This document shows positions 6,673 to 24,548 of a stretch of DNA of 58,454 nt, piece by piece. Under the pieces are notes generated by a model. It was not told the DNA's origin. It saw nothing but the letters and a program-made list of their open reading frames with translations, and searched no databases. The DNA comes from an uncultured Aeromonadaceae bacterium (GTDB lineage Bacteria; Pseudomonadota; Gammaproteobacteria; Enterobacterales; Aeromonadaceae), in the NCBI GenBank assembly GCA_945957385.1, contig CAMFKP010000019.1, positions 1 to 58,454 of the forward strand, in the 5' to 3' direction. The stretch's first letter is position 1. The number at the start of each line of letters is the position of its first letter. The position numbers and the translations under genes were made by a program.

Positions 6673-7836
6673 TCAATGTTGCGGCGAACGCAGCAGCTCG
6701 GCAAAACAGTGCAATGCATTGTCCACCGCATCGTCCATATCGAAATAGCGGTATTCGGCCAGGCGGCCTAACGGTATTAACTGGGTAAAACACCCCAGCC
6801 GGGCGCGGCAGTCGGCATAGCGCGCCTGGGCAGTGTCGGTAAACAGCGGGTAATAGGGCTCCAATCCCTGTTCAGGCTCGTAGGCACAGGGATACTCGTA
6901 GACGATGCTGGTGCCCGCGTGTACTTGCCCGGTCAGGTGCTTGAACTCGGTGATGCGGGTATAGGCCTCTTCATTGGGGTAATTCACCGTGGTCACCGGC
7001 TGGAATTGCGGCTGCGCCAGGTGGCGATGTTCGAAACGCAGCGAACGGTACGGCAGTGGCTCACTGCCGGCACAGAGCACATCCAGCATGCCGGTGTAGA
7101 TCAGCGGGCCGGTGAACGGGGCACCGTCCAGCATGACACGCCCCTGCCCCCAGTCCAGCGCCACGCGAGCGCTCATCGGCGTCGACAACTGCAATTCGAT
7201 GTTGGGGTGGGCCAGCATCGCCGCCACCATGGCACTGTAGCCCCCTTGCGGCACCGCCTGGAACGGATCGGTAAAGTAGCGATCATCACGGCTGACCACC
7301 ACGGGTACCCGGGCGGTCACCTCCGGCGAAATCGCCTCGGGCGGCATACCCCACTGCTTGCTGGTGTAGTTGACGAACGCCTTTTGATATATGAACTCCG
7401 CCAACTCGCCGAGCAGCGGATCGGCCTGCTGACGCAACGTCAGGATCGGCACCCGCGCCCCCTCGCCATAGCGCGACACCAGTGCCGCGATCAGCGCTTG
7501 CGCCTTGTCGGCGGGGAAACAACGTTCGATGCTGGTCAGGTTGAACGGCAGCGGCACCAGTTGGCCATCGATACGCGACAGTACCCGATGCTCGTAGGGA
7601 TGCCACTGGGTGAATTGCGACAGGTAGTCGGCCACCGCCGGCTTATCGGTATGGAACAGGTGCGGCCCATAACGGTGGATCAGCACGCCCGCCGCATCCC
7701 GTTCGTCAAAACAGTTGCCGGCCAGATGGTCACGCTGCTCCAGCACCAGTACACGCCAGCCGAGCTGGCTGGCCATGCGTTCGGCCATCACGGCGCCAGA
7801 CAGGCCGGCACCAATCACAATTGCCTGATAGGTCAT
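6673..7836 (-). CDS. glf: UDP-galactopyranose mutase
   Basis: This flavoenzyme converts UDP-galactopyranose to UDP-galactofuranose, the donor for galactofuranose in surface glycans. With the start at 7836 the protein has 387 residues, the usual length. It opens MTYQAIVIGAGLSGAV, an FAD-binding Rossmann motif, and contains GNCFDE, YGPHLFHT, YTSKQWG, RDDRYFTDPFQAVPQGGY and a C-terminal LGRLAEYRYFDMD segment typical of Glf. I chose this ATG rather than one 57 bases upstream because the FAD motif starts here and it overlaps the previous gene's stop as ATGA. Its presence predicts galactofuranose in the glycan. Confidence 0.93.
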   Translation of the reverse strand: MTYQAIVIGAGLSGAVMAERMASQLGWRVLVLEQRDHLAGNCFDERDAAGVLIHRYGPHLFHTDKPAVADYLSQFTQWHPYEHRVLSRIDGQLVPLPFNLTSIERCFPADKAQALIAALVSRYGEGARVPILTLRQQADPLLGELAEFIYQKAFVNYTSKQWGMPPEAISPEVTARVPVVVSRDDRYFTDPFQAVPQGGYSAMVAAMLAHPNIELQLSTPMSARVALDWGQGRVMLDGAPFTGPLIYTGMLDVLCAGSEPLPYRSLRFEHRHLAQPQFQPVTTVNYPNEEAYTRITEFKHLTGQVHAGTSIVYEYPCAYEPEQGLEPYYPLFTDTAQARYADCRARLGCFTQLIPLGRLAEYRYFDMDDAVDNALHCFAELLRSPQH

Positions 7837-8804
7837 GGGTTTGCTCCAAATAGCTGTTGTCTGACCTGAACCGGATCGGCCCTGAGTTGCCACGCCAGCT
7901 GATGACGGTCGTCGAAGAACCAGCCCGGGGCCAGCGCGGCCACCTCGTTCACCGACTGTTGGAGAAAGTGGTTAAAGCGCGGCGTGTCCTCCTGGCGCAG
8001 AAAATAGAGCGCCGCAGAATAGAGGTGATGGGCGCGCCCCTGGGCGATCACCAGCGGCGATATGCCAAACGCGGCCGCATTGTCACAGGCGCGCAGCATA
8101 TCTTGCAGCGACTGTTCACGGCGTGCAGCGGACTGCCGGGTCTGGCCGCCAAAACTGTTGGCGTGATAGCGATAACGCCCCAATACCGCGGGAATAAAAT
8201 CCAGCGAGCCGGGCTGCAACGCCAGATTCAGGATATGCCAGGGATAGTCGAGGATGATCTTGCAACCATCATCGATGGCCTCACCCATGCGCTCATGCCG
8301 GCGGAACATGATCGAGCTGGCGTTGACGAAACAGCCATAGCGGATCAAATCCGTGATATCGCCGACCGGGCGTAAATAGCGGTAGTTGTAATAGTCACGG
8401 GTAAACAGCTTCAGCGTCCGACCGCTCTCATCGTCAAACATGTCGGCTTCGTGGTAACACAGCGTGCAGTGCGGATGGTCGTCCAGGTAGGCAGCCTGTT
8501 GTTGCAGCTTGCCCGGCAGCGCCAGATCATCACCATCGACGTAGGCGATATAGTCGCCGCAAGCCTCGCTCAGTAACCGTTTCTGAGTACGCGCCAGACC
8601 AATATTCTGCGGATTCTGCAATGCGCGCAGCTGCGGGTAACGACTGGCCAGGTGCTGCATGATGGCCCAGGAGCCGTCGCTAGAGCCATCATCGATGGCG
8701 ATGACCTCATAATCGAAATCGGCCTGTTGCGTCAGCAGGCTCTCGAGACAGGGGGCAATGAAACGCTCGAGGTTGTAGACCGGAACCAGCACACTGACTT
8801 TCAT
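7833..8804 (-). CDS. glycosyltransferase family 2
   Basis: The 323-residue protein is a GT-A type transferase. It begins with VLVPVYNLERF and carries VIAIDDGSSDGS near residue 37 and the DxD-like AYVDGDDLALPGKL near residue 88, the nucleotide-sugar and metal site. The C-terminal third is acceptor-specific and not recognised. It appears to be the first gene of the minus-strand glycan operon; a hairpin with a short T-run lies between it and the luxC-like gene. An AGGA ribosome site lies about 8 bases before the ATG. The donor and acceptor sugars are not predictable. Confidence 0.85.
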   Translation of the reverse strand: MKVSVLVPVYNLERFIAPCLESLLTQQADFDYEVIAIDDGSSDGSWAIMQHLASRYPQLRALQNPQNIGLARTQKRLLSEACGDYIAYVDGDDLALPGKLQQQAAYLDDHPHCTLCYHEADMFDDESGRTLKLFTRDYYNYRYLRPVGDITDLIRYGCFVNASSIMFRRHERMGEAIDDGCKIILDYPWHILNLALQPGSLDFIPAVLGRYRYHANSFGGQTRQSAARREQSLQDMLRACDNAAAFGISPLVIAQGRAHHLYSAALYFLRQEDTPRFNHFLQQSVNEVAALAPGWFFDDRHQLAWQLRADPVQVRQQLFGANP

Positions 8805-9011: not shown

Positions 9012-10193
9012 TTAGCCGACCCGGGTCTGCCGGCTCATCTGCGCCAGCAGATCCTGCCCATCCCAGAACCAGTCAAACGCCAGCGCCTGACCCGGCACCA
9101 CCAGCCGGTCGATGCGGGTGTCGGGATATTGACGCAGCCAGGCCGCCACCGCCGCAGGCGTGATGCCGACACAGACACAGGTCTGCACCTGATCACCGGC
9201 GGCCAGCCAGGACGGCACATCGGCGTAGTGCCGTTCCAGCAGCACGCCGCCGCCCGTCGCGATCTGTGTCTGCACCCCGCCAGGCTGCAACAGGCTCAGG
9301 CTACCGACCGCAGTCTGCGCCAGCACCTCACCGCTGGCCAACGCCAGCTGGCTGTTCACCAGCCGCGCCATGCCGTTAGCCGGATCTTGGGCAAACGGTG
9401 CGGCCAACGCCGCCAACAACGCCTCACGAGCCGGAGCCGGCCAGTCACCCAACCAGACCAGCGTGGTCGGTGATGCACAGGCCTGCTGGTTAAACTGGCT
9501 GATGTCTTGCGCCAGCGCGGCCTGCTGGCGCTGGCGGCGGGCGTCATCCAACGCCAGCCAGGCGGAAGCGTCGAGGAGCGCCAGCGAACGGCGATCCGGA
9601 AACACCAGTTCCCGCCCGCGTGGTGGCAGCGCTATGGCCCGGATGGCCGTAACGGTGGCATCGCCCCCCCACACGACGCGCAGATCGCACTGCGCCGATA
9701 ACGCGGCGGTGATCGCCTCGTCATGGCCGTAACGAATGAACCGCACCCGAGCGGCGATCGCCTGCCACTCGGGCTTGGCTAACAAATCGGCGCACACGGC
9801 CAGCAACTGTTGCTGCACCGGAGCCTGACGGCGCGAGAGGCGTACTATCGCACTGTTACCTGCCAGCAACGCCATCAGCCAGGAGAACACCCCCAGCGTC
9901 GGCACATTGGACGGCACCAGGTGCAGTGTCAGCCCCAGCGGCGAGCGAGAGGCATACGCCGGCAAGTGGGCGCGTAACGCGGCCGGACGCAACCAGAACC
10001 CCAACGCCACCAGATCGGGCCACGCCGAGCCCTGTGCCAACAACCGTTGCGACAGTGCGGCACAAAAGGCCATCACGCTGTCATCCGCCACCGGCAGCGG
10101 CGCTGGGGTAAAGCCCTGCCAGCCGGACGCCGGTAACACAAATTCGATACCCTGTTGCGGCCAGGACGCCGTCATTGGAATGTGTCGCTGCAT
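9012..10193 (-). CDS. LuxC-like acyl-CoA/acyl-protein reductase
   Basis: The 393-residue protein belongs to the LuxC family, which reduces activated fatty acyl groups to aldehydes with NADPH. The family signature region LHLVPSNVPTLGVFSW lies at 91-104, and a candidate catalytic cysteine is Cys239 in QQACASPT, the context where LuxC enzymes carry their acyl-accepting Cys. No luciferase genes are present, so bioluminescence is not implied. The start at 10193 has GAGG seven bases upstream; an alternative ATG at 10175 would overlap the LuxE-like stop as ATGA. I infer a role in making an acyl or aldehyde substituent for the neighbouring glycan pathway. Confidence 0.85.
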   Translation of the reverse strand: MQRHIPMTASWPQQGIEFVLPASGWQGFTPAPLPVADDSVMAFCAALSQRLLAQGSAWPDLVALGFWLRPAALRAHLPAYASRSPLGLTLHLVPSNVPTLGVFSWLMALLAGNSAIVRLSRRQAPVQQQLLAVCADLLAKPEWQAIAARVRFIRYGHDEAITAALSAQCDLRVVWGGDATVTAIRAIALPPRGRELVFPDRRSLALLDASAWLALDDARRQRQQAALAQDISQFNQQACASPTTLVWLGDWPAPAREALLAALAAPFAQDPANGMARLVNSQLALASGEVLAQTAVGSLSLLQPGGVQTQIATGGGVLLERHYADVPSWLAAGDQVQTCVCVGITPAAVAAWLRQYPDTRIDRLVVPGQALAFDWFWDGQDLLAQMSRQTRVG

Positions 10194-11284
10194 CCGCGTA
10201 CCTCGGCTCCGCGCTGACGGCCCAGCACGCTAAAATAACGCCCGTGACGGCCACAGCGGCAGTCATCCTCACCCAGCAACACGCCGAGATCCTCGCTCAG
10301 CAGGCTATGGCCGGGATAGCTCAGTGGCAGTGCCGACAGCAGCTGCAGCAGGCCGGGTTGCCCCATCGGCAGCGGTGCCAGCGTCTGCGGATCGCGCACC
10401 AGCACATCGGCCAGCGCTGGAGCATGCAGGTGGCCGGCCTCGCACTCGACAAACACGGTACCAACCTGTTCGACCATGCCATAGAAGTTGTGCACCCGGC
10501 TCAGCCCCAGCTGCTGCTGGCAACGCGCCTTGAAGGCGGCGTTATCCACCGCCAGGTGTTGCAGTTTCTTCCAGCCGCCGCTGTGGAACAGGATGCCCTG
10601 CGCCAGCGGTAGCGTCAGCCCGCGCTGGTGCAGCGGCTCCAGCAGACACTGCCAGACCATGAAGGTGAAGCCGAAGATCAGCACCGGCTGATTGGCATAG
10701 CGCTCGCAGAATGCCTCGATCACCGGCCAGTTCGGCTGCATCTGTTCATCCAGCGCATAGTGGTGATCGCGGCCCAGAAACGACAGCCCGAGCGCACCGG
10801 CGCCACGGGCCGAGAAGCCACTGCGGTTCTGGATCAGTGCCGGCTGTTCAATCAGCAGCATCGGCAACCGCTGTTTACCAAGAAACTCCTGCAGGATGCG
10901 CACCAGCACCTTGCTCTGCAGCGCGGCGGTGGTTTTGTCGAGCACGATGCGCGACACGGCGCCGGTAGTGCCGGACGAGGTCAGTGTCTTGAAACGCTCA
11001 GCCTCCGGCACGCTGGCCAGCAACAGGTGCTTGAACAGCCGTACCGCCAGAAACGGCAGTGCCGTCGCATCGCTCGCCACGACCGGCCAGCCGTAGCCGG
11101 CCAGAATGCGCGCAAATTCCGGACTGTGCTGTTGGTGCCACTGGTTCAGCGCATTGAGGCGCCGCAGCAGCAGGGCGGCTTTTTGTGCCTGGGGCAGGTC
11201 ATAGACGGGGGCGTCCAGCAGCGCCTGCAGACTGGCCTCCAGCTCAGGCGTACCGTGGGGCTTGGCCTCGAACGCGTCACTCAT
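10172..11284 (-). CDS. LuxE-like acyl-protein synthetase
   Basis: The 370-residue protein matches the LuxE family, which activates a carboxylic acid with ATP and passes it to a cysteine before handing it to LuxC. Visible features are the ANL-type loop LTSSGTTGAVSR near residue 100, LFHSGGWKKL, and VHNFYGMVEQVGTVFVECE. The tail ends GCSDTFQ with Cys365, the position expected for the acyl-carrying Cys of LuxE. It overlaps the luxC-like gene by up to 22 bases and the AMP-ligase by 4 bases. With LuxC it forms a complete activate-and-reduce pair, which here sits in a flagellin glycosylation region. Confidence 0.85.
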   Translation of the reverse strand: MSDAFEAKPHGTPELEASLQALLDAPVYDLPQAQKAALLLRRLNALNQWHQQHSPEFARILAGYGWPVVASDATALPFLAVRLFKHLLLASVPEAERFKTLTSSGTTGAVSRIVLDKTTAALQSKVLVRILQEFLGKQRLPMLLIEQPALIQNRSGFSARGAGALGLSFLGRDHHYALDEQMQPNWPVIEAFCERYANQPVLIFGFTFMVWQCLLEPLHQRGLTLPLAQGILFHSGGWKKLQHLAVDNAAFKARCQQQLGLSRVHNFYGMVEQVGTVFVECEAGHLHAPALADVLVRDPQTLAPLPMGQPGLLQLLSALPLSYPGHSLLSEDLGVLLGEDDCRCGRHGRYFSVLGRQRGAEVRGCSDTFQ

Positions 11285-12666
11285 GCCGTGGCCTCCTCAA
11301 TCTGGCGTTGCAGCGCCGGGTAGTCGAGTTTGCCGGCAGCCGTCCGCGGCAACGTCGGGAGCGCGGCGACACGAAACAGGCTCGGGTGCAGGCCCAATTG
11401 CAGCTGTAGGTAGTCACGCACCGTGGCCACCTCGTCGGCCGCGCTGCAGGCGATACGCAGCGCCTGATCCTGGCCGCAGGCCACCAGCTCCCAGCCCAGA
11501 TCGCGGCATTGCCGCTCCAGCGAATCGAGCTGCCAGCGCACACCGGAGAGCTTGATCTGCCGCTTCAGCCGCCCGGTGATATGCCACAGCCCATCGGCGC
11601 TGCAATAGCCCAGATCGCCGGTCCGCAGCAGCGGCGGCATCGCCGGCGCGGCGAGATCGGCCTGTGATTCGGCATAGCCGAGCATCACATTCGGCCCGCG
11701 ATAACCCAGCTCGGCCTCGACGCCATACGCCAGCGGTTGTGGGACTCCGCACTCATCGAGCAGCAGCAGCTCGCCGCCGGGAATGGCCACGCCGATGCTA
11801 TCGGGGTGTTCGGCCGCCAGCTCGGGCGGCAGATAGCTGATGCGTGCCGTCGCTTCGGTCTGGCCATACATCACATAGAAACGGATCCCCTGCTCGCGGC
11901 ACCAGAGGGCATAGTCGCGCACCCGCTCCGCGGCCAGCCGGCCGCCGGCCTGGGTCAGGATGCGCAGGTGGGGCCAGCGCTGGCGGCGCAGGCGCAGTTG
12001 TTCATAAATCTGGTAGCTGTACGGCACGCCGGTCAGTTGCGTCACCGGATAACGCTTGAGGCACTCCCAGAAGCCGCGTTGCAGCGGGCTTTCGTTGGTC
12101 AGCACCAGACCGCCACCGCACAGCAGGTGGGAGTGAATCACCGACAGACCGTAGGAGTAGGCAAACGGCAGGGCCGTCAGCGCCAGATGGTCCGCCGCCA
12201 TCTGCAGATAGGCGACAATCGACTCGGCGTTGGCGATCAGGTTCTGTTCGCTCAGGCGTACCAGCTTGGCGCCGCCGGTGCTGCCGGAGGTCGTCAGCAG
12301 CACGGCCAGCTCGGGCAACAACGCCAGCGGGCGCGCGTGGCGCGGCTGTGGTGCCGACGCCGGCCTGAGCCAGAGGTGCGGATCATACTGTTGCAGTAGC
12401 GCCTCGACGCTGGCTTGCGGCAGATCCGCATTGACCAGCAGCACGGCATGACCGGCCCACAGGCAGGCCAGGTAGTTGAGCAGGCTCGGCAGGCTGTTGT
12501 CGGCCTGCAGCAACACCAGTTGCCGGCCCGCGGCCAGTGGCGCCTCGCCCCACAGCTGCGTGGCCAGCGCCTGGCTCTGGCTGCGCAGCTCGGCATAGCT
12601 GACCGTCTGCTCGTCGGCATACACGGCGACGCCTTCGTGCGCCAGCAAACGCTGCCACAGACTCAT
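11281..12666 (-). CDS. AMP-dependent acyl/aryl ligase (ANL superfamily)
   Basis: The 461-residue enzyme has the ANL core motifs: TSGSTGGAK at 126-134 (A3), YVMYGQTEATARIS (A5), LLRTGDLGY (A7) and a hinge/C-terminal subdomain with GRLKRQIKLSGVRW and RTAAGKLDY, where the Lys would catalyse adenylation. Such enzymes form an acyl-AMP and load CoA or a carrier protein. The acyl carrier protein two genes upstream is the obvious partner. The start overlaps the SDR stop by 4 bases (ATGA). The substrate acid is unknown. A hydroxy- or amino-acid is as likely as a fatty acid. Confidence 0.85.
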   Translation of the reverse strand: MSLWQRLLAHEGVAVYADEQTVSYAELRSQSQALATQLWGEAPLAAGRQLVLLQADNSLPSLLNYLACLWAGHAVLLVNADLPQASVEALLQQYDPHLWLRPASAPQPRHARPLALLPELAVLLTTSGSTGGAKLVRLSEQNLIANAESIVAYLQMAADHLALTALPFAYSYGLSVIHSHLLCGGGLVLTNESPLQRGFWECLKRYPVTQLTGVPYSYQIYEQLRLRRQRWPHLRILTQAGGRLAAERVRDYALWCREQGIRFYVMYGQTEATARISYLPPELAAEHPDSIGVAIPGGELLLLDECGVPQPLAYGVEAELGYRGPNVMLGYAESQADLAAPAMPPLLRTGDLGYCSADGLWHITGRLKRQIKLSGVRWQLDSLERQCRDLGWELVACGQDQALRIACSAADEVATVRDYLQLQLGLHPSLFRVAALPTLPRTAAGKLDYPALQRQIEEATA

Positions 12667-13409
12667 ATCAGCATGCCTCCGTCGACGCCGATCACCTGAC
12701 CGGTGACATAGCTCGACAGGCCACTGGCTAAAAACAGCGCCACGTTGGCGACCTCGTCGGCCGCGCCGCTGCGCCCCATGGCGATGCTGGCCAACCGCTG
12801 CTGGTACTTGTCATCCGGCAAGGTGCGGGTCATGTCGGTATCAATAAACCCCGGCGCGATAGCGTTGACGCGGATCTGCTGCGCCGCCAGCTCCTTGGCC
12901 AGCGACTGGGTAATCCCGATCACCGCTGCCTTGCTGCCGGCATAGACGCTGAGCCCGGCGGCGCCGACACACCCCATCAGCGACGTGAGGTTAATGATGC
13001 TGCCGCCACCGGCGCGCTGCATCATGCGCGCCGCATACTGGCTGCAATAGAGCACGCTGTGGCTATTGGCGGCAAAGGTGCGCTCCAGCTGGGCCTGGGT
13101 CACCATTCCCAGCAGCCCCTCCTCCAGCACGCCGGCGTTGTTCACCAGCACATCCAGGGTTTTACTGTGGCTAAACAGCTCGCGAAACAGCGTCTTGACC
13201 GCACCGGCATCGGCGACATCGCAACGGAAGGCGTGACAGGTAATGCTGTGTGTCGCCTGCAATTCGGCGGCCAGTGCTTGTCCCTGTTCCAGATGGCGTA
13301 CCGCCAGAAACAGCGTGGCGCCCTCGGCGGCAAAGCGCTCGGCGATGGCGCGGCCAATCCCGCGGCCGGCGCCGGTGACCAGCACCGTCTTGCCGCTGAG
13401 CAGCCCCAT
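12663..13409 (-). CDS. SDR-family oxidoreductase, FabG-like
   Basis: The 248-residue protein is a classical short-chain dehydrogenase: TGxxxGxG cofactor motif at 12-19 (TGAGRGIG), NNAG at 90-93, catalytic Ser143, Tyr156 and Lys160 (YAGSK), and the PGFIDTDM loop. It closely follows FabG/3-oxoacyl-ACP reductases in length and motifs. Its ATG overlaps the stop of the acyl carrier protein gene (TGATG), so reduction of a 3-oxoacyl group on that carrier to a 3-hydroxyacyl group is the natural guess. It is unlikely to be the housekeeping fabG, because no other fab genes are nearby. Confidence 0.88.
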   Translation of the reverse strand: MGLLSGKTVLVTGAGRGIGRAIAERFAAEGATLFLAVRHLEQGQALAAELQATHSITCHAFRCDVADAGAVKTLFRELFSHSKTLDVLVNNAGVLEEGLLGMVTQAQLERTFAANSHSVLYCSQYAARMMQRAGGGSIINLTSLMGCVGAAGLSVYAGSKAAVIGITQSLAKELAAQQIRVNAIAPGFIDTDMTRTLPDDKYQQRLASIAMGRSGAADEVANVALFLASGLSSYVTGQVIGVDGGMLI

Positions 13410-13642
13410 CAGGCCTCGACCCCGTACTTGGCCAGGATCTGTCGCGCCTTGAGTACCGAGCTCATGTCGATGATGTCATCGGTGTCGAGCATGATCTCGT
13501 ACTCATCCTCCAGACTGGCTATCAGTGTCATATGGGCCACCGAGTCCCACTGCGGAATGCTCTGGTAAGTCAAATCATCAGTCACCAGCTCGGGCGCGAT
13601 CGCCAGCGCATCGGCAAATATCTGGATAAGGGATTTTTTCAT
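13409..13642 (-). CDS. acyl carrier protein
   Basis: The 77-residue acidic protein has the ACP four-helix pattern with the phosphopantetheine site Ser34 in the motif WDSVAH. The usual housekeeping ACP has DSLD at this place, so this is a specialised carrier. It lies 2 bases after the GNAT gene and overlaps the SDR by one base. Its position between an acyltransferase and acyl-processing enzymes suggests it shuttles an acyl group made by the AMP-ligase, SDR and LuxC/E proteins to the acyltransferase. A 4'-phosphopantetheinyl transferase is not in the window. Confidence 0.88.
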   Translation of the reverse strand: MKKSLIQIFADALAIAPELVTDDLTYQSIPQWDSVAHMTLIASLEDEYEIMLDTDDIIDMSSVLKARQILAKYGVEA

Positions 13643-13644
13643 CG

Positions 13645-14205
13645 TCAGTACCTGATAAAACGGGAGTAATGATCGCGCGCCGCATAGTAGTCAGCGGCGG
13701 TCAGTTGATAGCAATTTAGCCCATCGCCTTCCGGCCCCAGCGGCCGGTAGCCACAGCTGGCATTGAAACGCCGCGCGGCACTGTTATGGGCAAACACCCG
13801 GGCCGTCAATTGGCTGACCCCCAGCTGTTCAAACGCAAAGTCGAGCAGAGCAAACACCACACAAAACGGCACCAGGTTCTGCCGGAAACGCGCCTCGCCG
13901 ATATAGAGACCCGGCTCGGCCCGCTGCGGGTCCTCGGCGTCCAGCGTCAAGGTGGCGACGCCGATCGGCTCACCGCGAAAATAGGCGACAAAACAAAAAT
14001 GGCGCTGTGAAGCCGAAATGCGTGCAAACCAGGCTTGATGCTGTTCGGGCGAAATAGTGTGCTGATCGACCATCATGCTGGCGATCTGGGGATCATTGCG
14101 CCACTGACGGACGCGCTCCAGATCGCCGTCGGTCAGCGGTCGCAAGTCGATCCCGTAACGCAGTGCAGGCGTGAGTTTTTGCACAGCGGCAGGCGCATCC
14201 GTCAT
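13645..14205 (-). CDS. GNAT N-acyltransferase, PseH-like
   Basis: The 186-residue protein shows a GNAT fold with LRPLTDGDLERVRQWRNDPQI at its start, IGVATLTLD and a C-terminal FAHNSAARRFNASCGYRP segment, the usual CoA-binding and NAxA-like helix region. It resembles PseH, which N-acetylates the C4 amine of UDP-4-amino-4,6-dideoxy-AltNAc in pseudaminic acid synthesis. pseF, pseG and pseI lie divergently next door, which supports PseH. Because an ACP follows within 2 bases, it might instead transfer a longer or hydroxylated acyl group from ACP; that is inference. It is the first gene of the sigma-28-linked acyl operon. Confidence 0.75.
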   Translation of the reverse strand: MTDAPAAVQKLTPALRYGIDLRPLTDGDLERVRQWRNDPQIASMMVDQHTISPEQHQAWFARISASQRHFCFVAYFRGEPIGVATLTLDAEDPQRAEPGLYIGEARFRQNLVPFCVVFALLDFAFEQLGVSQLTARVFAHNSAARRFNASCGYRPLGPEGDGLNCYQLTAADYYAARDHYSRFIRY

Positions 14206-14337
14206 GCCGGCCCTCCTTTACTTACTACCTGCGACGGCGGTCGGCGCCGTCACAGCAGAAAACGAGCCCCACTATACCATCCCAGGGGGGGCCTGGCGGG
14301 ACTGCACACTCATTTTTTGAAATAATTCAGTCAGTTG

Positions 14338-14366
14338 GTGACAGAATAAACGTCTGTATCTATTAT
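14338..14366 (+). promoter_or_regulatory. sigma-70-type promoter for pseFGI
   Basis: GTGACA, a 17-base spacer and TATTAT form a plausible housekeeping promoter about 60 bases before pseF. Its -10 overlaps the -10 of the divergent sigma-28 promoter, so the two polymerases could compete. Confidence 0.5.
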
Positions 14367-14389
14367 CGACCAACTGGCCAGAAACTTGA
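14363..14389 (-). promoter_or_regulatory. sigma-28 (FliA) promoter for the acyl/PseH operon
   Basis: On the minus strand TCAAGTTT, 11 bases, then GTCGATAA closely match the sigma-28 consensus TAAAGTTT-N11-GCCGATAA (14 of 16). The same -10 variant, GTCGATAA, occurs at the flaB promoter in this window. It would give a leader of about 150 bases before the GNAT gene. Confidence 0.7.
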
Positions 14390-14425: not shown

Positions 14426-15124
14426 ATGACGATTGCCATCATCCCTGCCCGCGGTGGCAGCAAGCGCATTCCGCGCAAGAATATCCGTCCCTTCTGCGGG
14501 CGCCCGATGATCAGCTATGCCATTGCCGCCGCCCAGGCCGCCGGCTGTTTTGAGCACATCATCGTCTCGACTGATGACGACGAGATTGCCGCCGTCGCCC
14601 GGGAATGGGGGGCCGAGACGCCGTTTCTGCGTCCGGCGAACCTCGCCGATGACCATACCGGCACGACGGCGGTGGTGATCGATGCCATCCAACGCCTGGA
14701 GGCACTCGGGCTGCACGCCGACAGCTACTGCTGCATCTATGCGACCGTGCCGTTGATCCGCGCCCGCGATCTGCTGCATGCCTACCAGCGGTTAACAGCC
14801 AGCCAGGCCGATTATGCCTTCAGCGCCGCCGCGTTTGGCTTTCCGATCCAGCGCGCGCTGCAACTGGATGCCGACGGCTGTGCCACGCCGTTATGGCCGG
14901 AACACATCGCCAAACGCAGCCAGGATTTGACACCGGCTTATCAGGATGCCGGTCAGTTCTACTGGGGACGACGCGACGCCTGGCTCGGCGGCCGCGGCGT
15001 GTTTGATGGCCGCGGACTGGCACAACTGCTGCCCCGCTACCGCGTCGTTGACATCGACACCGAAGAGGATTGGCAGCTGGCCGAACTGCTCTATCAGGCA
15101 CTGCAGCAGCATGATGCCGGTTGA
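14426..15124 (+). CDS. pseF: pseudaminic acid cytidylyltransferase
   Basis: This enzyme activates pseudaminic acid with CTP to CMP-Pse, the last cytoplasmic step before transfer to flagellin. The 232-residue protein begins MTIAIIPARGGSKRIPRKNI, the nucleotide-binding signature of CMP-nonulosonate synthetases (NeuA/PseF), and ends with VVDIDTEEDWQLAELL, where the family has metal-binding acidic residues. I chose the ATG at 14426 because AGGAG lies 6 bases upstream and the signature starts there. pseG overlaps the 3' end, and the three pse genes form one operon. Confidence 0.93.
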   Translation: MTIAIIPARGGSKRIPRKNIRPFCGRPMISYAIAAAQAAGCFEHIIVSTDDDEIAAVAREWGAETPFLRPANLADDHTGTTAVVIDAIQRLEALGLHADSYCCIYATVPLIRARDLLHAYQRLTASQADYAFSAAAFGFPIQRALQLDADGCATPLWPEHIAKRSQDLTPAYQDAGQFYWGRRDAWLGGRGVFDGRGLAQLLPRYRVVDIDTEEDWQLAELLYQALQQHDAG

Positions 15125-16112
15125 TTACCTGTTCCGTCTCGATGCCGACAGCCAGATTGGCACCGGGCACCTGATGCGTTGCCTGGCGATTGCCGATGCG
15201 CTGCGCGCCCAGGGCGGACGCTGTGCGTTCGCCTGCCGCCCGCTGCCACCGACCTTGCGGCCCAAGCTGCAGGCGTATCCATTACGGGAGCTGGACGATG
15301 ATGGCGCGTTTTGGCCGCTGCTGACCGCACTGATGCCGCGCTGGGTCATCGTCGACCACTATGGGCTGGATGCCGAATTTGAAGGCCAGGTCCGGCGCCA
15401 CGGCAGCAAACTGCTGGTACTGGATGATTTGGCCGACCGCCGTCACGACGCCGATCTGCTGCTCGACCAGGGTCCGCTGCGCACGGCCGCCGATTACCAG
15501 CCGCTGCTGACTCAGCCGTGCCGGCTGCTACTCGGCGCCGATTATGCACTGTTGCGCGCCGAGTTTGTCGCACGGCGCAAACCGGCGGCCACCCCATTTC
15601 GGCGTGGTTTTATCAGCTTCGGTGGCGCCGATCCGGTCCACGCCTGTCTGCACACCCTGCAGGCTCTCACCGCCACCGCCTGGTGGTCGCGTTGTGCATG
15701 GACCCTGGTGGCCGGCGCCGCCAATCCGGATTGGCCGGCGCTCCAGCAGTGGCTCGCCGCCCATCCGGCCCGGGTGACGCTGCTCCGCCACAGTGATGAG
15801 ATGCCACGCCTGCTGGCGGAACACGATTTTGCCATCGGCGCCGCGGGCGGCATGATGTGGGAGCGCTGCTGTGTCGGTCTGCCGACGCTGAGCGTCCCCA
15901 TCGTCGCCAATCAGGCATTCAACGATGCGGTGATCGCGCACTATCAGCTCGGCGAACGGCTAACGCTGGACGCCCTGCAGCAGCCGGCACAACTGGAAGC
16001 GGCATTGAACCGCCTGGAAGCCCGAGCCGATTATTATCACCAGCAGGGGCAAGCCCTGGTGGATGGTCAGGGGCTGACGCGCCTGACGACGCAGTTAAGG
16101 AGTGAAGAATGA
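15114..16112 (+). CDS. pseG: UDP-2,4-diacetamido-2,4,6-trideoxy-beta-L-altropyranose hydrolase
   Basis: PseG removes UDP from the fourth intermediate of the pseudaminic acid pathway. The 332-residue GT-B-like protein starts MPVDYLFRLDADSQIGTGHLMRCLA, with the glycine-rich GTGH segment and conserved His near residue 20, and has LVLDDLADRRHDADLLLDQ and AAGGMMWERCCVGLPTL in the UDP-binding C-terminal half. The start may be this ATG or the one 3 bases earlier; both lie inside the end of pseF. The stop overlaps the pseI start as ATGA. No extra acetyltransferase domain is fused, in keeping with a separate PseH-like protein across the divergent promoter. Confidence 0.9.
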   Translation: MPVDYLFRLDADSQIGTGHLMRCLAIADALRAQGGRCAFACRPLPPTLRPKLQAYPLRELDDDGAFWPLLTALMPRWVIVDHYGLDAEFEGQVRRHGSKLLVLDDLADRRHDADLLLDQGPLRTAADYQPLLTQPCRLLLGADYALLRAEFVARRKPAATPFRRGFISFGGADPVHACLHTLQALTATAWWSRCAWTLVAGAANPDWPALQQWLAAHPARVTLLRHSDEMPRLLAEHDFAIGAAGGMMWERCCVGLPTLSVPIVANQAFNDAVIAHYQLGERLTLDALQQPAQLEAALNRLEARADYYHQQGQALVDGQGLTRLTTQLRSEE

Positions 16113-17161
16113 AGATTGCCGGACGGCCAATCGGCCGTGACCACGCCCCCTACCTCATCGCTGAGCTGTCGGCCAATCACAACGGCTCACTGGAGCGGGC
16201 GCTAAATATCGTGCGCGCCGCCAAAGAGGCCGGCGCCGATGCCGTCAAGCTGCAAACCTACCGCCCGGACACCATCACGCTGGATTCGGATCGCCCCGAA
16301 TTCATGATTCACGGCGGCCTGTGGGACGGCAAGCGGCTGTATGATCTCTACCAGTGGGCCCATATGCCGTGGGAGTGGCATGCGCCGCTGTTCGCCCTTG
16401 GCAAACAGCTGGGCATCACGGTGTTCAGCAGCCCGTTTGATTTCAGCGCCATCGATCTGCTGGCCGAACTCGATGCCCCGGCCTACAAGATTGCGTCGTT
16501 TGAAGCCATTGACCTGCCGCTGATCCGCTATGCCGCCGAGACAGGCAAACCGTTGATCATCTCGACCGGCATGGCCAACGAACGCGAGATCGGCGCCGCG
16601 CTGGAGACGGCACACAAATATGGCTGTGGCGAGGTGGCGCTGCTGCACTGCGTCAGTGGTTACCCGGCGCCCGCCGGCGAATACCATCTGGCCACCCTAG
16701 CCGACATGCGGCAGCGTTTTGGCGTTGAGGTTGGCCTCTCCGACCACACGCTGGGTTCGGCCACGGCCATTGCCGCCACGGCGCTGGGGGCCACGCTGAT
16801 CGAAAAACACTTTACGCTGCGCCGCGCCGATGGCGGTCCGGACAGTGCTTTTTCGATGGAGCCCGACGAGCTGGCCCAGCTGGCGGCCGATACCCGTACC
16901 GCCTGGTCGGCCATCGGTGCACCACGCTATAGCCTGAGTGCCAGCGAGCAGCACAACATCCAGTTCCGGCGCTCGCTCTACCTGGTCAAAGCGGTACGCG
17001 CCGGCGAGCCGTTAACCGCCGACCATGTGCGCTCGGTGCGCCCGGGCCTGGGGCTGCCACCGGCTGATTACGACCGGGTACTCAGTGCCGTGGCGCGCCG
17101 CGATCTGGCGGCCAATACCCCACTGAGCTGGGACGATCTGGACGACACCACCGCCGGCTGA
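16109..17161 (+). CDS. pseI: pseudaminic acid synthase
   Basis: PseI condenses 2,4-diacetamido-2,4,6-trideoxy-altrose with phosphoenolpyruvate to give pseudaminic acid. The 350-residue protein has an N-terminal NeuB-type TIM barrel (AELSANHNGSLERAL, DAVKLQTYRPDTITL, KIASFEAIDLPLI, LLHCVSGYPAP, VGLSDHTLGSATAIAA, LIEKHFTLRR) and a C-terminal SAF/antifreeze-like domain (about 290-350, SLYLVKAVRAGEPLT). All expected barrel motifs are present. It overlaps pseG by 4 bases and is the last plus-strand gene before a hairpin shared with the converging maf operon. Confidence 0.94.
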   Translation: MKIAGRPIGRDHAPYLIAELSANHNGSLERALNIVRAAKEAGADAVKLQTYRPDTITLDSDRPEFMIHGGLWDGKRLYDLYQWAHMPWEWHAPLFALGKQLGITVFSSPFDFSAIDLLAELDAPAYKIASFEAIDLPLIRYAAETGKPLIISTGMANEREIGAALETAHKYGCGEVALLHCVSGYPAPAGEYHLATLADMRQRFGVEVGLSDHTLGSATAIAATALGATLIEKHFTLRRADGGPDSAFSMEPDELAQLAADTRTAWSAIGAPRYSLSASEQHNIQFRRSLYLVKAVRAGEPLTADHVRSVRPGLGLPPADYDRVLSAVARRDLAANTPLSWDDLDDTTAG

Positions 17162-17238: not shown

Positions 17239-19329
17239 CTACTGCCGCAATTGCAGATGGGGCCCCTGAATAAAATCCATCCCGTGCTGGTAGTGACGTT
17301 TCAACGTCGCCAAGAACGCCAGGATCTGCGGCACCTGCTCACGCACCCCCTCCAGTGCCACGGCTTCATCCTCGATGCGGTAGACAAATACGCTCAACAT
17401 CGCATACAAGGTATTCAAGGTACCGGTTAGCACATAGGCAATATGGCGCTGCCGGCTATTGTGAATGGTCTGCAAATATTCTGACTGGCGTTGCAGCATA
17501 CGAATAAATTCATAACGCGTCGCCGGAATGGTCTGCCACTCCTGTTGCAATTTATCAATAAACCAGTTGAAAAAGGGCTGGTCCATATATTCCTTGAGCT
17601 GAGCGGCGTCATAATTAACTTCGGTCGTCATCTGCTCATGAATATGCTTAATCAGCGCCGCCTTATCAAATTCCGGCCAGGTGGCAACCGGCACTTCGGT
17701 TAAGGGTAACGGTGTGGTACCACGAATCATGGCACCATCACTGCAATTATGACATTCGGCCCGCGGGAAATTAGACAACAAGACTTCGATCATCATCAAC
17801 GAGGCGGAGAATAAATTATTGCTGATCACCTCGCCGCCGAAATTACCGGGAATGATTTTATCGCCTGAGGCCAGCACCATGGAGGCAAATTCAGGTTTCG
17901 GTTTTCCATCCTCACCATAATACATACTGTAGGTGGAGTGATGGTGACCATCGACTTTAAATCCGTTATCCAGGCCAATCAGGAACAAATTATTAAACCC
18001 CAGATGCAGGGGCATGCTGATACCGATATTACCCACTAATGGATTGGCGTGGGTAATCGCCAACAACTGATCGACCGGTTGCTTATTGGCCAGCAACAAT
18101 GTCAGCATCGGCTCATCGGCTTTCATGGTTAACGCCATCTTTTTAAATAAGCGTCGGCACTGCGGGTGTACTACGTCGGTACTTAAAAACAATACCTTTT
18201 CCAGATAATCTGCCGGAATATTTTCCAACGAGCGCGGCACCACATCCACACGCTCGGTTGCCACATAAATATCGGCCACTATGCCGGCCCGATACAGGGA
18301 TCCCAGCGCGGTACCACAGGCCAGAATAATGGCGTTATGCTGGTGCTGGCGAATAAACGCCATCGCAGCGTCATCCAGGGACGGACCATTGGCGACCACC
18401 AGCACCGGCATGGCAGCCATGCCGGCTGGCAAGCGGGCATCATCACGGATAAAGCGGATGCCGGCACTGAGATTATTCAGGCTGTGAGACAGGGAAAAGA
18501 GGTTGTCATCAAAAAAGCCCCAGCCCATGCCCAACTGATAAAAATCACGGATCACGGTGGCCTTGAGACTATTTAATGCCGGTGAATCATAATGCGAGAA
18601 ATAAAAACAGTTGGCGCACAGGAACGTATTATTGCGCTCAGTGGAAATGGCGGCTCTAAGATCGACCATCACATCGGCTTCAGTCTGGCCGACGAACAGA
18701 TGCAACCCCATATTTTCCTGTTCCAGATAACCGAGCAGCGAGGCCCAGTCAAAACAGAATAACGAGGCGTAGAAAATATCTGCATCCGGCTCAAATACAA
18801 ACAGATTTGCGACCTGGCAACGTTCGTATAAATAAGCCAGTTGATAGCCGAGCCCCAAACCAAACATCATCGCCAGCGGAATGGAGTCGGGAATACCCTG
18901 AATCAGTTTATGGGTCTGATAGAATGCTTGTTGCGCCGCCGTCAGCTGATTAAAAAATACAATATGTTCCTGGCCGAAAGCATCATATTCATGATTGCGT
19001 TCAAACTGCATAATCGGCGTAGCGTTGAGGGTGTGTTCGATTTGGCGTTGACAGTCCGCAAACGGATTCGGGCCATAAAAGGCGTGGCCATTATCTTTCC
19101 AGCGAATATTTGGCTCACCATTTTCCGTGCAGAAAAATTCCAGCTCGCGCGTAACTTTATAATCTTTGAATTTATTGAAAATAGCGGGAATGAGTCGCTC
19201 GAACGCCTGCATATTGGCACTGAAACGGAGTGGTAAAACCGCTTGCATCGCCTTTTCTTGCTCGGCGATTTTCTTTATTTTCTCCAGTTTATCTTCCAGC
19301 GCGCCAAGATCATCCATCCAATCAGACAT
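17239..19329 (-). CDS. maf: motility accessory factor Maf, flagellin nonulosonate transferase
   Basis: The 696-residue protein belongs to the Maf/DUF115 (MptE-like) family, which transfers pseudaminic acid onto Ser/Thr of flagellin in the cytoplasm. The central MAF_flag10 domain carries MPVLVVANGPSLDD at 307-320 and is followed by IILACGTALGSLYRAGI and IPGNFGGEV; flanking N- and C-terminal helical regions match the three-domain Maf layout. It starts 4 bases after fliT and ends just before the terminator. The order fliD-fliT-fliS-maf, with pse genes next to it, fits Aeromonas maf-1. No other Maf is in the window. Confidence 0.93.
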   Translation of the reverse strand: MSDWMDDLGALEDKLEKIKKIAEQEKAMQAVLPLRFSANMQAFERLIPAIFNKFKDYKVTRELEFFCTENGEPNIRWKDNGHAFYGPNPFADCQRQIEHTLNATPIMQFERNHEYDAFGQEHIVFFNQLTAAQQAFYQTHKLIQGIPDSIPLAMMFGLGLGYQLAYLYERCQVANLFVFEPDADIFYASLFCFDWASLLGYLEQENMGLHLFVGQTEADVMVDLRAAISTERNNTFLCANCFYFSHYDSPALNSLKATVIRDFYQLGMGWGFFDDNLFSLSHSLNNLSAGIRFIRDDARLPAGMAAMPVLVVANGPSLDDAAMAFIRQHQHNAIILACGTALGSLYRAGIVADIYVATERVDVVPRSLENIPADYLEKVLFLSTDVVHPQCRRLFKKMALTMKADEPMLTLLLANKQPVDQLLAITHANPLVGNIGISMPLHLGFNNLFLIGLDNGFKVDGHHHSTYSMYYGEDGKPKPEFASMVLASGDKIIPGNFGGEVISNNLFSASLMMIEVLLSNFPRAECHNCSDGAMIRGTTPLPLTEVPVATWPEFDKAALIKHIHEQMTTEVNYDAAQLKEYMDQPFFNWFIDKLQQEWQTIPATRYEFIRMLQRQSEYLQTIHNSRQRHIAYVLTGTLNTLYAMLSVFVYRIEDEAVALEGVREQVPQILAFLATLKRHYQHGMDFIQGPHLQLRQ

Positions 19330-22047: not shown

Positions 22048-22962
22048 TTAGCCCAGCAGGGACAGTGCAGCCTGCGGACGTTGGTTGGCTTGAGCCAGAA
22101 CAGAAGACGCTGCTTGTTGCAGGATGTTCTGCTTGGTCATGTTCGCCGTTTCGGTCGCGAAGTCAGCATCACGGATACGGGAACGGGCGGCACTGACGTT
22201 CTCAGAGATGTTGGACTGGTTACGAACCGTGGAGTCCAGACGGTTTTGCACCGCACCCAGCGTCGCGCGGGTGGTGTCTACCGTCTTGATCAGGCTGTCG
22301 ATGTTCTTCAGTACCGTCTGAGCATTATCCATGGTGGTAATACTGCTGATAGCACTCCAGGACAAGGCGCCAGAACCGGCGGTTTCCTTGAACGCGGAGG
22401 TGGTGCTGTCCCAAGAAACTTGAGTCCAGCTGGAGGTCTTGCCGGCCAGGCCGTTCACCCCGAAGCTGTTGGTCGTCAGGTTGACGTTGATGGCTTGACC
22501 CGCGTCGGCACCTACCTGGAACTTGAAGTTGTTGCTGGACGCGCCGTTCAGCAGGTTCTGGCCACCGAAAGTGGTGTCCTTGGCGATACGGTTAATTTCA
22601 TTGGACAGCTGGGTGTATTCAGATTGCAGTGCGGCACGGTCGCTGGAGGAGTTGCTACCGTTAGCGGATTGTTGTGCCAGGGTGCGCATGCGCTGCAGCA
22701 TGCTGGTGGTTTCATCCAGCGCGCCTTCAGCGGTTTGAGCCAGAGAGATACCGTCGTTCGCGTTACGGTTGCCTTGATCCAGGCCGTTGATCTGGGAAGT
22801 CAAACGGTTGGAGATTTGCAGACCGGCGGCGTCATCCTTGGCGCTGTTGATGCGCAGACCAGAGGCCAGACGGGTGTAAGAGGTATCCAGCGACTTACCG
22901 GTGGCGCTGAGGTTACGCTGGGCGTTAAGAGAAGAGACGTTTGTGTTGATGTACATAGCCAT
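22048..22962 (-). CDS. flaB: polar flagellin FlaB
   Basis: The 304-residue flagellin has conserved D0/D1 ends (MAMYINTNVSSLNAQRNLS at the start, ILQQAASSVLAQANQRPQAA near the end) and a short variable middle, about 175-225, where O-glycans usually attach in Aeromonas. No Cys is present. It is close to FlaA over both ends. GGGAG lies 8 bases before the ATG, and a sigma-28 promoter lies about 300 bases upstream, leaving an unusually long leader. FlaB is probably exported with FliS and modified by Maf. Confidence 0.95.
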   Translation of the reverse strand: MAMYINTNVSSLNAQRNLSATGKSLDTSYTRLASGLRINSAKDDAAGLQISNRLTSQINGLDQGNRNANDGISLAQTAEGALDETTSMLQRMRTLAQQSANGSNSSSDRAALQSEYTQLSNEINRIAKDTTFGGQNLLNGASSNNFKFQVGADAGQAINVNLTTNSFGVNGLAGKTSSWTQVSWDSTTSAFKETAGSGALSWSAISSITTMDNAQTVLKNIDSLIKTVDTTRATLGAVQNRLDSTVRNQSNISENVSAARSRIRDADFATETANMTKQNILQQAASSVLAQANQRPQAALSLLG

Positions 22963-23615: not shown

Positions 23616-24548
23616 TTAGCCTTGTAACAACTGCAGCGCGGCCTGCGGGCGTTGGTTCGCCTGGGACAGCACCGCCGAGGCGGCTTGTTGCAGAATATTC
23701 TGCTTGGTCATGTTTGCCGTTTCGGTGGCGAAGTCTGCATCGCGGATCCGGGAACGGGCGGCAGTGACGTTTTCGGAAATATTGGACTGGTTGCGAACCG
23801 TAGAATCCAGACGGTTTTGCACCGCACCGAGTTCCGAACGCTTGCTGTCCACCGAGGAGATCAGCTTGTCAATGTTCGCCAGCACCGTCTGGGCATCGTT
23901 GACGGTCGAGATACTGTCGATATCCCCCCAGGTCATCGCCGCGGTCTGCACCGTGCTATCAAACTGACTGGTGGTTGAATTCCAGCTGAGCTTCGACCAT
24001 TCGTTGGCCTTGACGTCGCCGGCCAGCCCTGACACCCCGAAGCAGAAATCGGCCAGATTGAAGGCAATCACCTGCCCCGCCTCGGCGCCAACCTGGAACT
24101 GGAACACCTTGTCATCGCTAGCACTCTTGCCATTAAGCAGCTTACGGCCGCCGAACGTGGTATCCGAGGCAATACGGGTAATTTCATTGGCCAGCTGGGT
24201 ATATTCCGCCTGCAGGGCCGAACGGTCAGAAGAGCTGTTGGAACCATTGGATGATTGTTGCGCCAAGGTTCTCATGCGCTGCAGCATGGAGGTAATTTCA
24301 TCCATGGCGCCTTCGGCCGTCTGTGCCAGGGAAATACCGTCGTTAGCATTACGGTTACCCTGATCCAGACCATTAATCTGCGAAGTCAGACGGTTTGATA
24401 TTTGTAAACCCGCGGCATCGTCTTTCGCGCTATTAATGCGCAGACCAGAAGCGAGTCGAGTATATGACGTATCCAATGACTTATTTGCGTTGGACAAATT
24501 GCGCTGCGCATTGAGCGAGGATACGTTGGTACTAACGTACATAGCCAT
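23616..24548 (-). CDS. flaA: polar flagellin FlaA
   Basis: The 310-residue flagellin has the same conserved ends as FlaB (MAMYVSTNVSSLNAQRNLS, then the C-terminal NMTKQNILQQAASAVLSQANQ) and a variable middle at about 160-230. Unusually it contains one cysteine, Cys169, in LADFCFGVSG; FlaB has Ser at the matching place (NSFGVNG). AGGAG lies 8 bases before the start, and a sigma-28 promoter with a perfect -10 lies about 80 bases upstream. With FlaB it forms the polar filament, and it should be a substrate of Maf-dependent pseudaminic acid glycosylation. Confidence 0.95.
   Translation of the reverse strand: MAMYVSTNVSSLNAQRNLSNANKSLDTSYTRLASGLRINSAKDDAAGLQISNRLTSQINGLDQGNRNANDGISLAQTAEGAMDEITSMLQRMRTLAQQSSNGSNSSSDRSALQAEYTQLANEITRIASDTTFGGRKLLNGKSASDDKVFQFQVGAEAGQVIAFNLADFCFGVSGLAGDVKANEWSKLSWNSTTSQFDSTVQTAAMTWGDIDSISTVNDAQTVLANIDKLISSVDSKRSELGAVQNRLDSTVRNQSNISENVTAARSRIRDADFATETANMTKQNILQQAASAVLSQANQRPQAALQLLQG

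Follow-up and report, generated by a model that had tools for sequence, protein, structure and literature searches.

Flagellin glycosylation islands of Aeromonas and of enterobacteria carry a block of lux-like genes whose product has been discussed mainly in terms of lipids. In Aeromonas Group II islands (98 strains), genes for an acyl carrier protein (ACP), a 3-oxoacyl-ACP reductase, an AMP synthetase, luxE and luxC lie downstream of pseH, and fgi-1 follows this block in all but one strain (PMC7874193). In enterobacteria, ACP, LuxE, LuxC, CaiC and FabG were described in 71 to 80 strains (PMC4875605). The block was thus recorded in enterobacterial flagellin islands in 2016 and in Aeromonas in 2021, and the gene set itself is not new. 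It was interpreted as serving fatty-acid synthesis or a fatty aldehyde in Aeromonas, and a liposugar was suggested for enterobacteria; the available parts of the two papers name no product beyond a fatty aldehyde or lipid. We analysed such a block of six genes in a 58,454-nucleotide stretch of DNA (the window), a single complete contig (CAMFKP010000019.1) of the 4.03-Mb draft genome of an uncultured Aeromonadaceae bacterium (GCA_945957385.1). From its gene content and from the altered coenzyme A (CoA) site of its acyltransferase, we consider it reasonably probable that a short hydroxyacyl group borne by the ACP is passed by a PseH-type GNAT to a pseudaminic acid (Pse) precursor. If so, LuxE/LuxC chemistry would serve the acylation of surface sugars, far from light production.

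The six open reading frames (ORFs) lie on the minus strand within 9012..14205. Adjacent genes overlap by 1 to 22 nt, the exception being a 2-nt gap between the GNAT and ACP genes:

13645..14205, minus strand: GNAT acyltransferase, PseH-type, 186 aa, with Pro113 at the CoA-pyrophosphate glycine position (Acetyltransf_3, 1.1e-18; TIGR03585, 87.6 bits)
13409..13642, minus strand: acyl carrier protein, 77 aa, Ser34 (PF00550 PP-binding, 2.1e-4)
12663..13409, minus strand: FabG-like short-chain dehydrogenase/reductase (SDR), predicted reducer of an aldehyde or keto group (PF13561 adh_short_C2, 7.8e-65)
11281..12666, minus strand: AMP-forming ligase, catalytic Lys446, predicted loader of an acid onto the ACP (PF00501 AMP-binding, 1.6e-42)
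10172..11284, minus strand: LuxE-like acyl-protein synthetase, acyl-Cys365 (PF04443, 4e-43; LuxE 7xc6_E by profile)
9012..10193, minus strand: LuxC-like acyl reductase, Cys239 (PF05893, 5.7e-30)

A first-pass annotation, made from the letters of the window, had assigned these six families and positions, and both agree with the ORF coordinates and Pfam matches. The end it gave for the module, 14389, falls inside the gap ahead of the divergent pseF. Its statement that the module adjoins pseudaminic acid and flagellin genes is borne out by matches to pseF, pseG, pseI and two flagellins, and its mention of lux-like genes in Aeromonas glycosylation islands was correct (PMC7874193). The catalytic residues that it named were examined in cluster members of plausible length, drawn from 62 ACP, 77 LuxE, 77 LuxC, 78 ligase and 75 SDR members. 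All three proved invariant in aligned relatives: Ser34 of the ACP in 61 of 61, and, with the window included, Cys365 of LuxE in 76 of 76 and Cys239 of LuxC in 73 of 73. Lys446 of the ligase was likewise kept in 75 of 75, and the catalytic Tyr and Lys of the SDR in 70 of 71 each.

The window GNAT belongs to the PseH type, which acts in the pseudaminic acid pathway. It scores 87.6 bits with the PseH model TIGR03585, under the curated cut-off of 93.1, and its nearest structures are both PseH, 4xpk by sequence and 4ri1 by fold (E 3.7e-13); a protein database search with it gave seven matches, which were not used further. No second separate PseH was seen in the window's draft genome, where the next TIGR03585 match reaches 49 bits against 87.5 for this one. 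The acceptor, which the first-pass annotation had left as an unspecified amino sugar of the flagellin glycan, is therefore most likely a pseudaminic acid precursor. The rest of the route it proposed, with an acid on the ACP, processing by LuxE, LuxC and the SDR, and transfer by the GNAT, is supported by the comparative evidence.

We compared the substrate sites of 28 PseH from loci without the module and 44 module-linked GNATs from several phyla, aligned to a fragment of Helicobacter pylori PseH, with residue roles (contacts to sugar, pantetheine, pyrophosphate and the acetyl wall) after PMC4363471. The sugar-binding Arg30 is Arg in 27/28 module-free and 43/44 module-linked enzymes, and the pantetheine-binding Asn131 is Asn in all 28 and all 44. 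The CoA-pyrophosphate residue Gly103 is Gly in 28/28 module-free enzymes but in only 3/44 module-linked ones, which have Ala (26), Pro (10), Ser (4) or Gln (1) instead; the window enzyme has Pro. The first loop glycine is present in 19/28 against 0/41, Lys or Arg occupies the Lys133 site in 12/28 against 1/44, and Leu125 of the acetyl wall is replaced by Ala or Gly in 5/28 against 34/44. In these alignments the pantetheine and main sugar contacts are retained, the nucleotide contact is lost, and the acyl pocket has probably been opened in the module-linked enzymes. Transfer of a larger acyl group from ACP would require both changes, a lost pyrophosphate contact and an opened pocket, and the site thus points to acyl-ACP as the donor of the GNAT.

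The 28 module-free enzymes were picked by a score above the PseH cut-off, a choice that favours an intact loop, and included no Firmicutes PseH control. As a check free of this bias we used every PseI place in the relatives set, 58 places spread over 57 of its 120 genomes. The module was present at 22 places, the window among them, and a PseH-type GNAT was found at 22/22; at the 36 places without the module a GNAT match was found at 26, fused ones included. The second-glycine column held Gly in 1/22 with the module and in 23/26 without it. One genome with PseI and module on different contigs (G100) was counted as lacking the module, and another (G023) had module genes on short contigs and no PseI match. 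Both GNAT kinds occur, in two loci, in a single genome of the 120 relatives (G020).

The altered site appears to have arisen repeatedly. On a tree with the loop columns excluded, the 44 module-linked GNATs need five changes, at least two of them forced by strong branches, and a single clade of module-linked GNATs was rejected (p-AU, approximately unbiased test, 0.0017). This set leaves out a duplicate row and seven GNAT rows that lack the module and score under the PseH cut-off, and it includes four module loci missed by clustering. With all columns, 41 module rows split in two: 29 of them, from Proteobacteria apart from one Bacillota row, form a clade, and the other 12, from Bacillota, stand in a group that also contains one row of each other class. 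At locus L140 the variant GNAT and PseG form one fused protein, the start of PseG being cut by the contig edge, and this fusion ties the variant GNAT to the Pse pathway.

The changed loop can also be read as that of an ordinary acetyl-CoA-dependent PseH with a divergent loop, the other five genes decorating a different sugar of the glycan, for instance the 102-Da unit that ends the A. piscicola AH-3 glycan. Several observations favour this reading and weigh against transfer from ACP. The window GNAT has the PseH fold; the P-loop of H. pylori PseH is itself atypical, yet acetyl-CoA is bound (PMC4964394); and the first loop glycine is already absent in 9/28 module-free PseH, so that the loop change is no proof of an ACP donor. 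Two sugar contacts have shifted as well, His49 being His in 25/28 module-free enzymes but Gln in 38/44 module-linked ones, and Glu126 being Glu in 23/28 against 15/44. The 102-Da unit is placed last in the AH-3 glycan (PMC7874193), and the PseI and PseG pair is absent from the fetched flanks of 37/67 ligase-LuxE-LuxC loci, indicating that the module can serve other sugars. Against this, the altered site tracks the module (41/44 linked GNATs lack the pyrophosphate glycine, and a single origin is rejected), no more than 72 nt separate the GNAT and ACP genes in 17 of the 32 loci measured, and the fgi-1 mutant of AH-3 keeps a 376-Da sugar, 60 Da above di-N-acetyl-Pse, with the remaining chain lost (PMC7874193). 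We therefore regard an ordinary PseH as unlikely, and acyl-ACP as the donor that we infer for the module-linked enzymes.

A few loci show other arrangements of the GNAT. No natural GNAT-ACP fusion was present among the 13,776 ORFs of the loci scanned, and at L077, where Pse genes and module are both present, a GNAT was not found at the locus. At L221 (genome G077, 6024-6590) a PseH-like GNAT with one loop glycine kept lies close to low-scoring matches for an ACP (31 bits) and a ligase (34 bits), and is possibly an intermediate or part of a different carrier system. In two Campylobacterota loci (L053, 5193-5720; L064, 5021-5575) a more distant GNAT, likewise without the loop glycines, lies about 4.2 kb from the ACP gene.

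The module is widespread. A pattern scan with one genome per species gave at least 571 relatives, and the locus counts rest on the best 80 of these, which come from Proteobacteria, Campylobacterota, Bacillota, Gastranaerophilales, Spirochaetales, Flavobacterium and others. They are lower counts because the ORF caller loses genes beneath longer wrong frames, and flanks extend to at most 10 kb. Ligase, LuxE and LuxC occurred together in 67/80 loci, and this order is kept in relatives across several phyla; all five module genes were found in 49/80. PseI-type and PseG clusters lay nearby in 30/67. A split transketolase was present in 22/67 (within L035-L114), 7 of which also have Pse genes and 15 of which are without the PseI and PseG pair, and an IlvB-like thiamine pyrophosphate (TPP) enzyme in 6/67, five with NeuB and none with Pse. 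Transketolase, IlvB-like enzymes and NeuB act on aldehydes or keto acids, and their presence beside the module would fit production of an aldehyde by LuxE and LuxC. Since the transketolase and IlvB-like loci mostly or all lack PseI and PseG, other hydroxyacyl groups are suggested there.

LuxE of family PF04443 was matched in 27/120 genomes of the relatives set. The window's draft genome is among these 27, and the window LuxE is its sole match. In three of them (G013, G037 and G116) the match is another LuxE type, with no tblastn match to the window LuxE. The genus of G116 was taken for Vibrio from a luciferase-like neighbour. In three further loci of that genus (L287-L289; genomes G492, G484 and G435) module-type LuxE and LuxC lie near a NeuB-like gene and a gene of about 600 aa, recalling Shewanella sfmAB; of the three genes of about 600 aa, the one tested, that of L287, encodes a TPP enzyme.

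From these genes and their conserved residues we infer the following reactions. LuxE would activate a carboxylic acid to the acyl-AMP and transfer it to Cys365; LuxC would accept the acyl group on Cys239 and reduce it to the aldehyde, which the SDR would convert to the alcohol. The AMP-ligase would then attach the remaining carboxylate to Ser34 of the ACP. On this scheme LuxE, LuxC and the dehydrogenase would reduce one end of a diacid and the ligase would load its other end onto the ACP, giving a hydroxy-acid. The GNAT would then acylate UDP-4-amino-4,6-dideoxy-AltNAc at its 4-amino group, where PseH puts an acetyl group. PseG, PseI, PseF and Maf would bring the N7-acylated pseudaminic acid to flagellin, where Fgi-1 would extend it. 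In the published relative of AH-3 type the likeliest product would be Pse5Ac7-tetronyl, 376.15 Da.

The enzyme kinds of this scheme match those of the Vibrio cholerae O1 tetronate pathway, of which RfbM is the iron alcohol dehydrogenase and RfbO the N-acyltransferase. In that pathway malate has been named as the source of the tetronate, 2,4-dihydroxybutyrate (PMC10746206), RfbL activates 2,4-dihydroxybutanoate and transfers it to CoA or to the carrier RfbK (PMC12208996), and RfbN contains a LuxE domain (PMC4772473). Four of the 196 genomes of G116's genus carry a ligase, an iron alcohol dehydrogenase and a LuxE-LuxC protein of 825 to 827 aa; an ACP was called in 3/4. The module profiles match these RfbN-like loci (ligase 173-183 bits, LuxE 290-296, LuxC 118-122, ACP 52-53), and the proteins of one RfbKLN-like locus are 24-37% identical to those of the window. 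A fused LuxE-LuxC protein, as in V. cholerae RfbN, was also seen within a module locus of Roseburia faecis (L078, 9929-12316).

The masses of the A. piscicola AH-3 glycan, of which the 376- and 102-Da values reportedly go back to Wilhelms 2012, agree with such an acyl group. Pse5Ac with a free 7-amine (274.116 Da) plus C4H6O3 (102.03 Da) gives a computed mass of 376.148 Da. The AH-3 linking sugar has 376.14 Da and is kept alone in the fgi-1 mutant, and a further 102-Da moiety forms the final unit of the glycan (PMC7874193); subtraction of the other parts from the full glycan of 1491.5 Da leaves 102.04. Two strains described with a single pseudaminic derivative, AH-1 (403 Da) and A. caviae (named Pse5Ac7Ac9Ac), both differ from AH-3 (PMC4691044). 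For the acyl group of the published relative we tentatively suggest tetronyl (2,4-dihydroxybutyryl), derived from malate; by analogy with V. cholerae it is a serious candidate, though we would not count on it.

A number of points weigh against this assignment. Isomers fit the mass equally, namely an N-O-methylglyceroyl group with N-acetyl, or any C15H24N2O9 sugar; the published AH-3 masses have one or two decimals; and A. piscicola AH-3 is the one module-bearing strain known here from published masses. The tetronate pathway is itself putative, and the product of RfbL may be a CoA ester (PMC12208996). The window has an SDR where that pathway has an iron alcohol dehydrogenase, the latter being found in 4/4 RfbN-like loci. 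Transketolase in 7/30 Pse-linked loci indicates that the acyl group probably varies, and against 16 Aeromonas genomes the window GNAT is 32-49% and the ligase 41-45% identical, so that the window acyl may differ.

The GNAT may thus transfer an acyl group as proposed that is not tetronyl, for example a glyceroyl later O-methylated, 3-hydroxybutyryl or a host-extended chain. C4H6O3 has several isomers, the window ligase and GNAT diverge from those of Aeromonas, and transketolase or IlvB-like genes are added in some loci; against it stand the match of enzyme kinds with the tetronate pathway and the agreement at 102.03. This reading is possible, but we lean against it; as it is a variant of transfer from ACP to the Pse precursor, its chances are not to be added to those of the latter. 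Alternatively, the product could be a fatty aldehyde (suggested in PMC7874193) or a sugar bearing lipid (suggested in PMC4875605), in line with the family names LuxE, LuxC, FabG and ACP. We do not prefer this reading, since the AH-3 masses in print sum to the full glycan and leave no space for a long acyl chain. In addition, the window LuxE (49.5 bits against 550) and LuxC (48.4 against 750) both miss the NCBIfam equivalog thresholds of the luminous type by far. A lipid product therefore seems very improbable.

For the acylation of the Pse precursor from ACP, three concrete proposals make the block testable: N7-tetronyl pseudaminic acid as product, acyl-ACP as donor and, as marker, a PseH-type enzyme that has lost its pyrophosphate glycine. 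The proposed acylation would account for the 102-Da mass in AH-3. Within the open-licence literature, to which the search was confined, we found no paper combining pseudaminic with tetronic or dihydroxybut- words. More speculatively, and with somewhat more doubt than confidence, we suggest that several phyla have repeatedly converted PseH to an ACP-dependent acyltransferase fed by LuxE and LuxC, placing tetronyl-like Pse on flagella, and that one acyl group explains both the 376-Da sugar and the 102-Da unit of Aeromonas. If true, this would be one route to non-acetyl acyl groups on pseudaminic acid, with the same switch having evolved more than once.

Around the module, the window holds further genes of a flagellin glycosylation island, including FliD and the following:

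7833..8804, minus strand: GT2 glycosyltransferase at the Fgi-1 position (PF00535)
14426..15124, plus strand: pseF, CMP-pseudaminic acid synthetase type (PF02348)
15111..16112, plus strand: pseG, UDP-sugar hydrolase type, start not fixed (PF04101 below cut-off; PseG cluster profile, 321 bits)
16109..17161, plus strand: pseI, pseudaminic acid synthase (PF03102; TIGR03586, 489 bits)
17239..19329, minus strand: Maf flagellin glycosyltransferase (PF20157 and PF01973)
22048..22962, minus strand: flagellin, likely glycan target (PF00669 and PF00700)
23616..24548, minus strand: second flagellin, likely glycan target (PF00669 and PF00700)

In 15 relatives, the first 37-57 aa of the GT2 at the Fgi-1 position, the comparable part only, are 63-87% identical, and the gene lies directly 3' of luxC. 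In A. piscicola AH-3, Fgi-1 attaches the first sugar to pseudaminic acid (PMC7874193). Downstream lie glycosyltransferases, an AsnB-like gene, a methyltransferase, a UDP-galactopyranose mutase-like gene (6673-7893) and a GT56 Fuc4NAc transferase-like gene (512-1522); with the last two, the glycan may contain galactofuranose. The pseB and pseC genes are on a separate contig (C23), not joined to that of the window, 5.8 and 4.7 kb from its end. That end (L261, 3306-11174) carries MptE-like (Maf-type), pseB, pseC, methyltransferase, AsnB-like and DegT aminotransferase genes, with a FleQ-like gene beside them, and probably represents the far side of this island. A scan for promoters and terminators gave one promoter-like site against 1.0 expected and five terminator-like sites against 2.9 expected, and was not used as evidence.

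Compared with known systems, the locus is closest to Aeromonas Group II islands (A. piscicola AH-3, A. hydrophila ATCC 7966), with which it shares pse genes, the order ACP-FabG-AMP-ligase-LuxE-LuxC beside a pseH-type gene, an Fgi-1-type GT2 after luxC and a maf gene downstream of pseI. Within the family, the window genome falls in a different genus group, and its island has the extra mutase-like and GT56-like genes; the available part of PMC7874193 reports no mutants in the five module genes. PseH itself (H. pylori 4ri1, Campylobacter jejuni 4xpk/4xpl) has the same fold, place beside pseF, pseG and pseI, sugar-binding Arg and pantetheine-binding Asn, whereas module-linked GNATs mostly lack the CoA-pyrophosphate glycine and mostly have Ala or Gly at the acetyl wall, the window enzyme scoring under the NCBIfam cut-off. 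FdhC (5ktc) is a GNAT with bound CoA and a 3-hydroxybutanoylamino sugar; its structure holds CoA, unlike the ACP donor proposed here, and we know of no carrier-protein partner for it. In Shewanella oneidensis, sfmABCDE likewise joins a 274-Da Pse5Ac-type core (ion 275.1238) to a unit thought to be nitrogen-free, but with NeuB, TPP enzyme, SDR, methyltransferase and ATP-grasp genes, lux being unmentioned in the main text of PMC3765264. The V. cholerae O1 tetronate pathway (RfbK, L, M, N and O; VC0248-VC0252) has the same kinds of component, an ACP, a ligase, LuxE and LuxC, an alcohol-forming dehydrogenase and an amino-sugar N-acyltransferase. The tetronate-type loci of G116's genus have LuxE and LuxC in one fused protein and a dehydrogenase of the iron type, whereas the window has the two as separate proteins, together with an SDR and a GNAT. 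The acceptor in V. cholerae O1 is perosamine in lipopolysaccharide; here it would be pseudaminic acid on flagellin.

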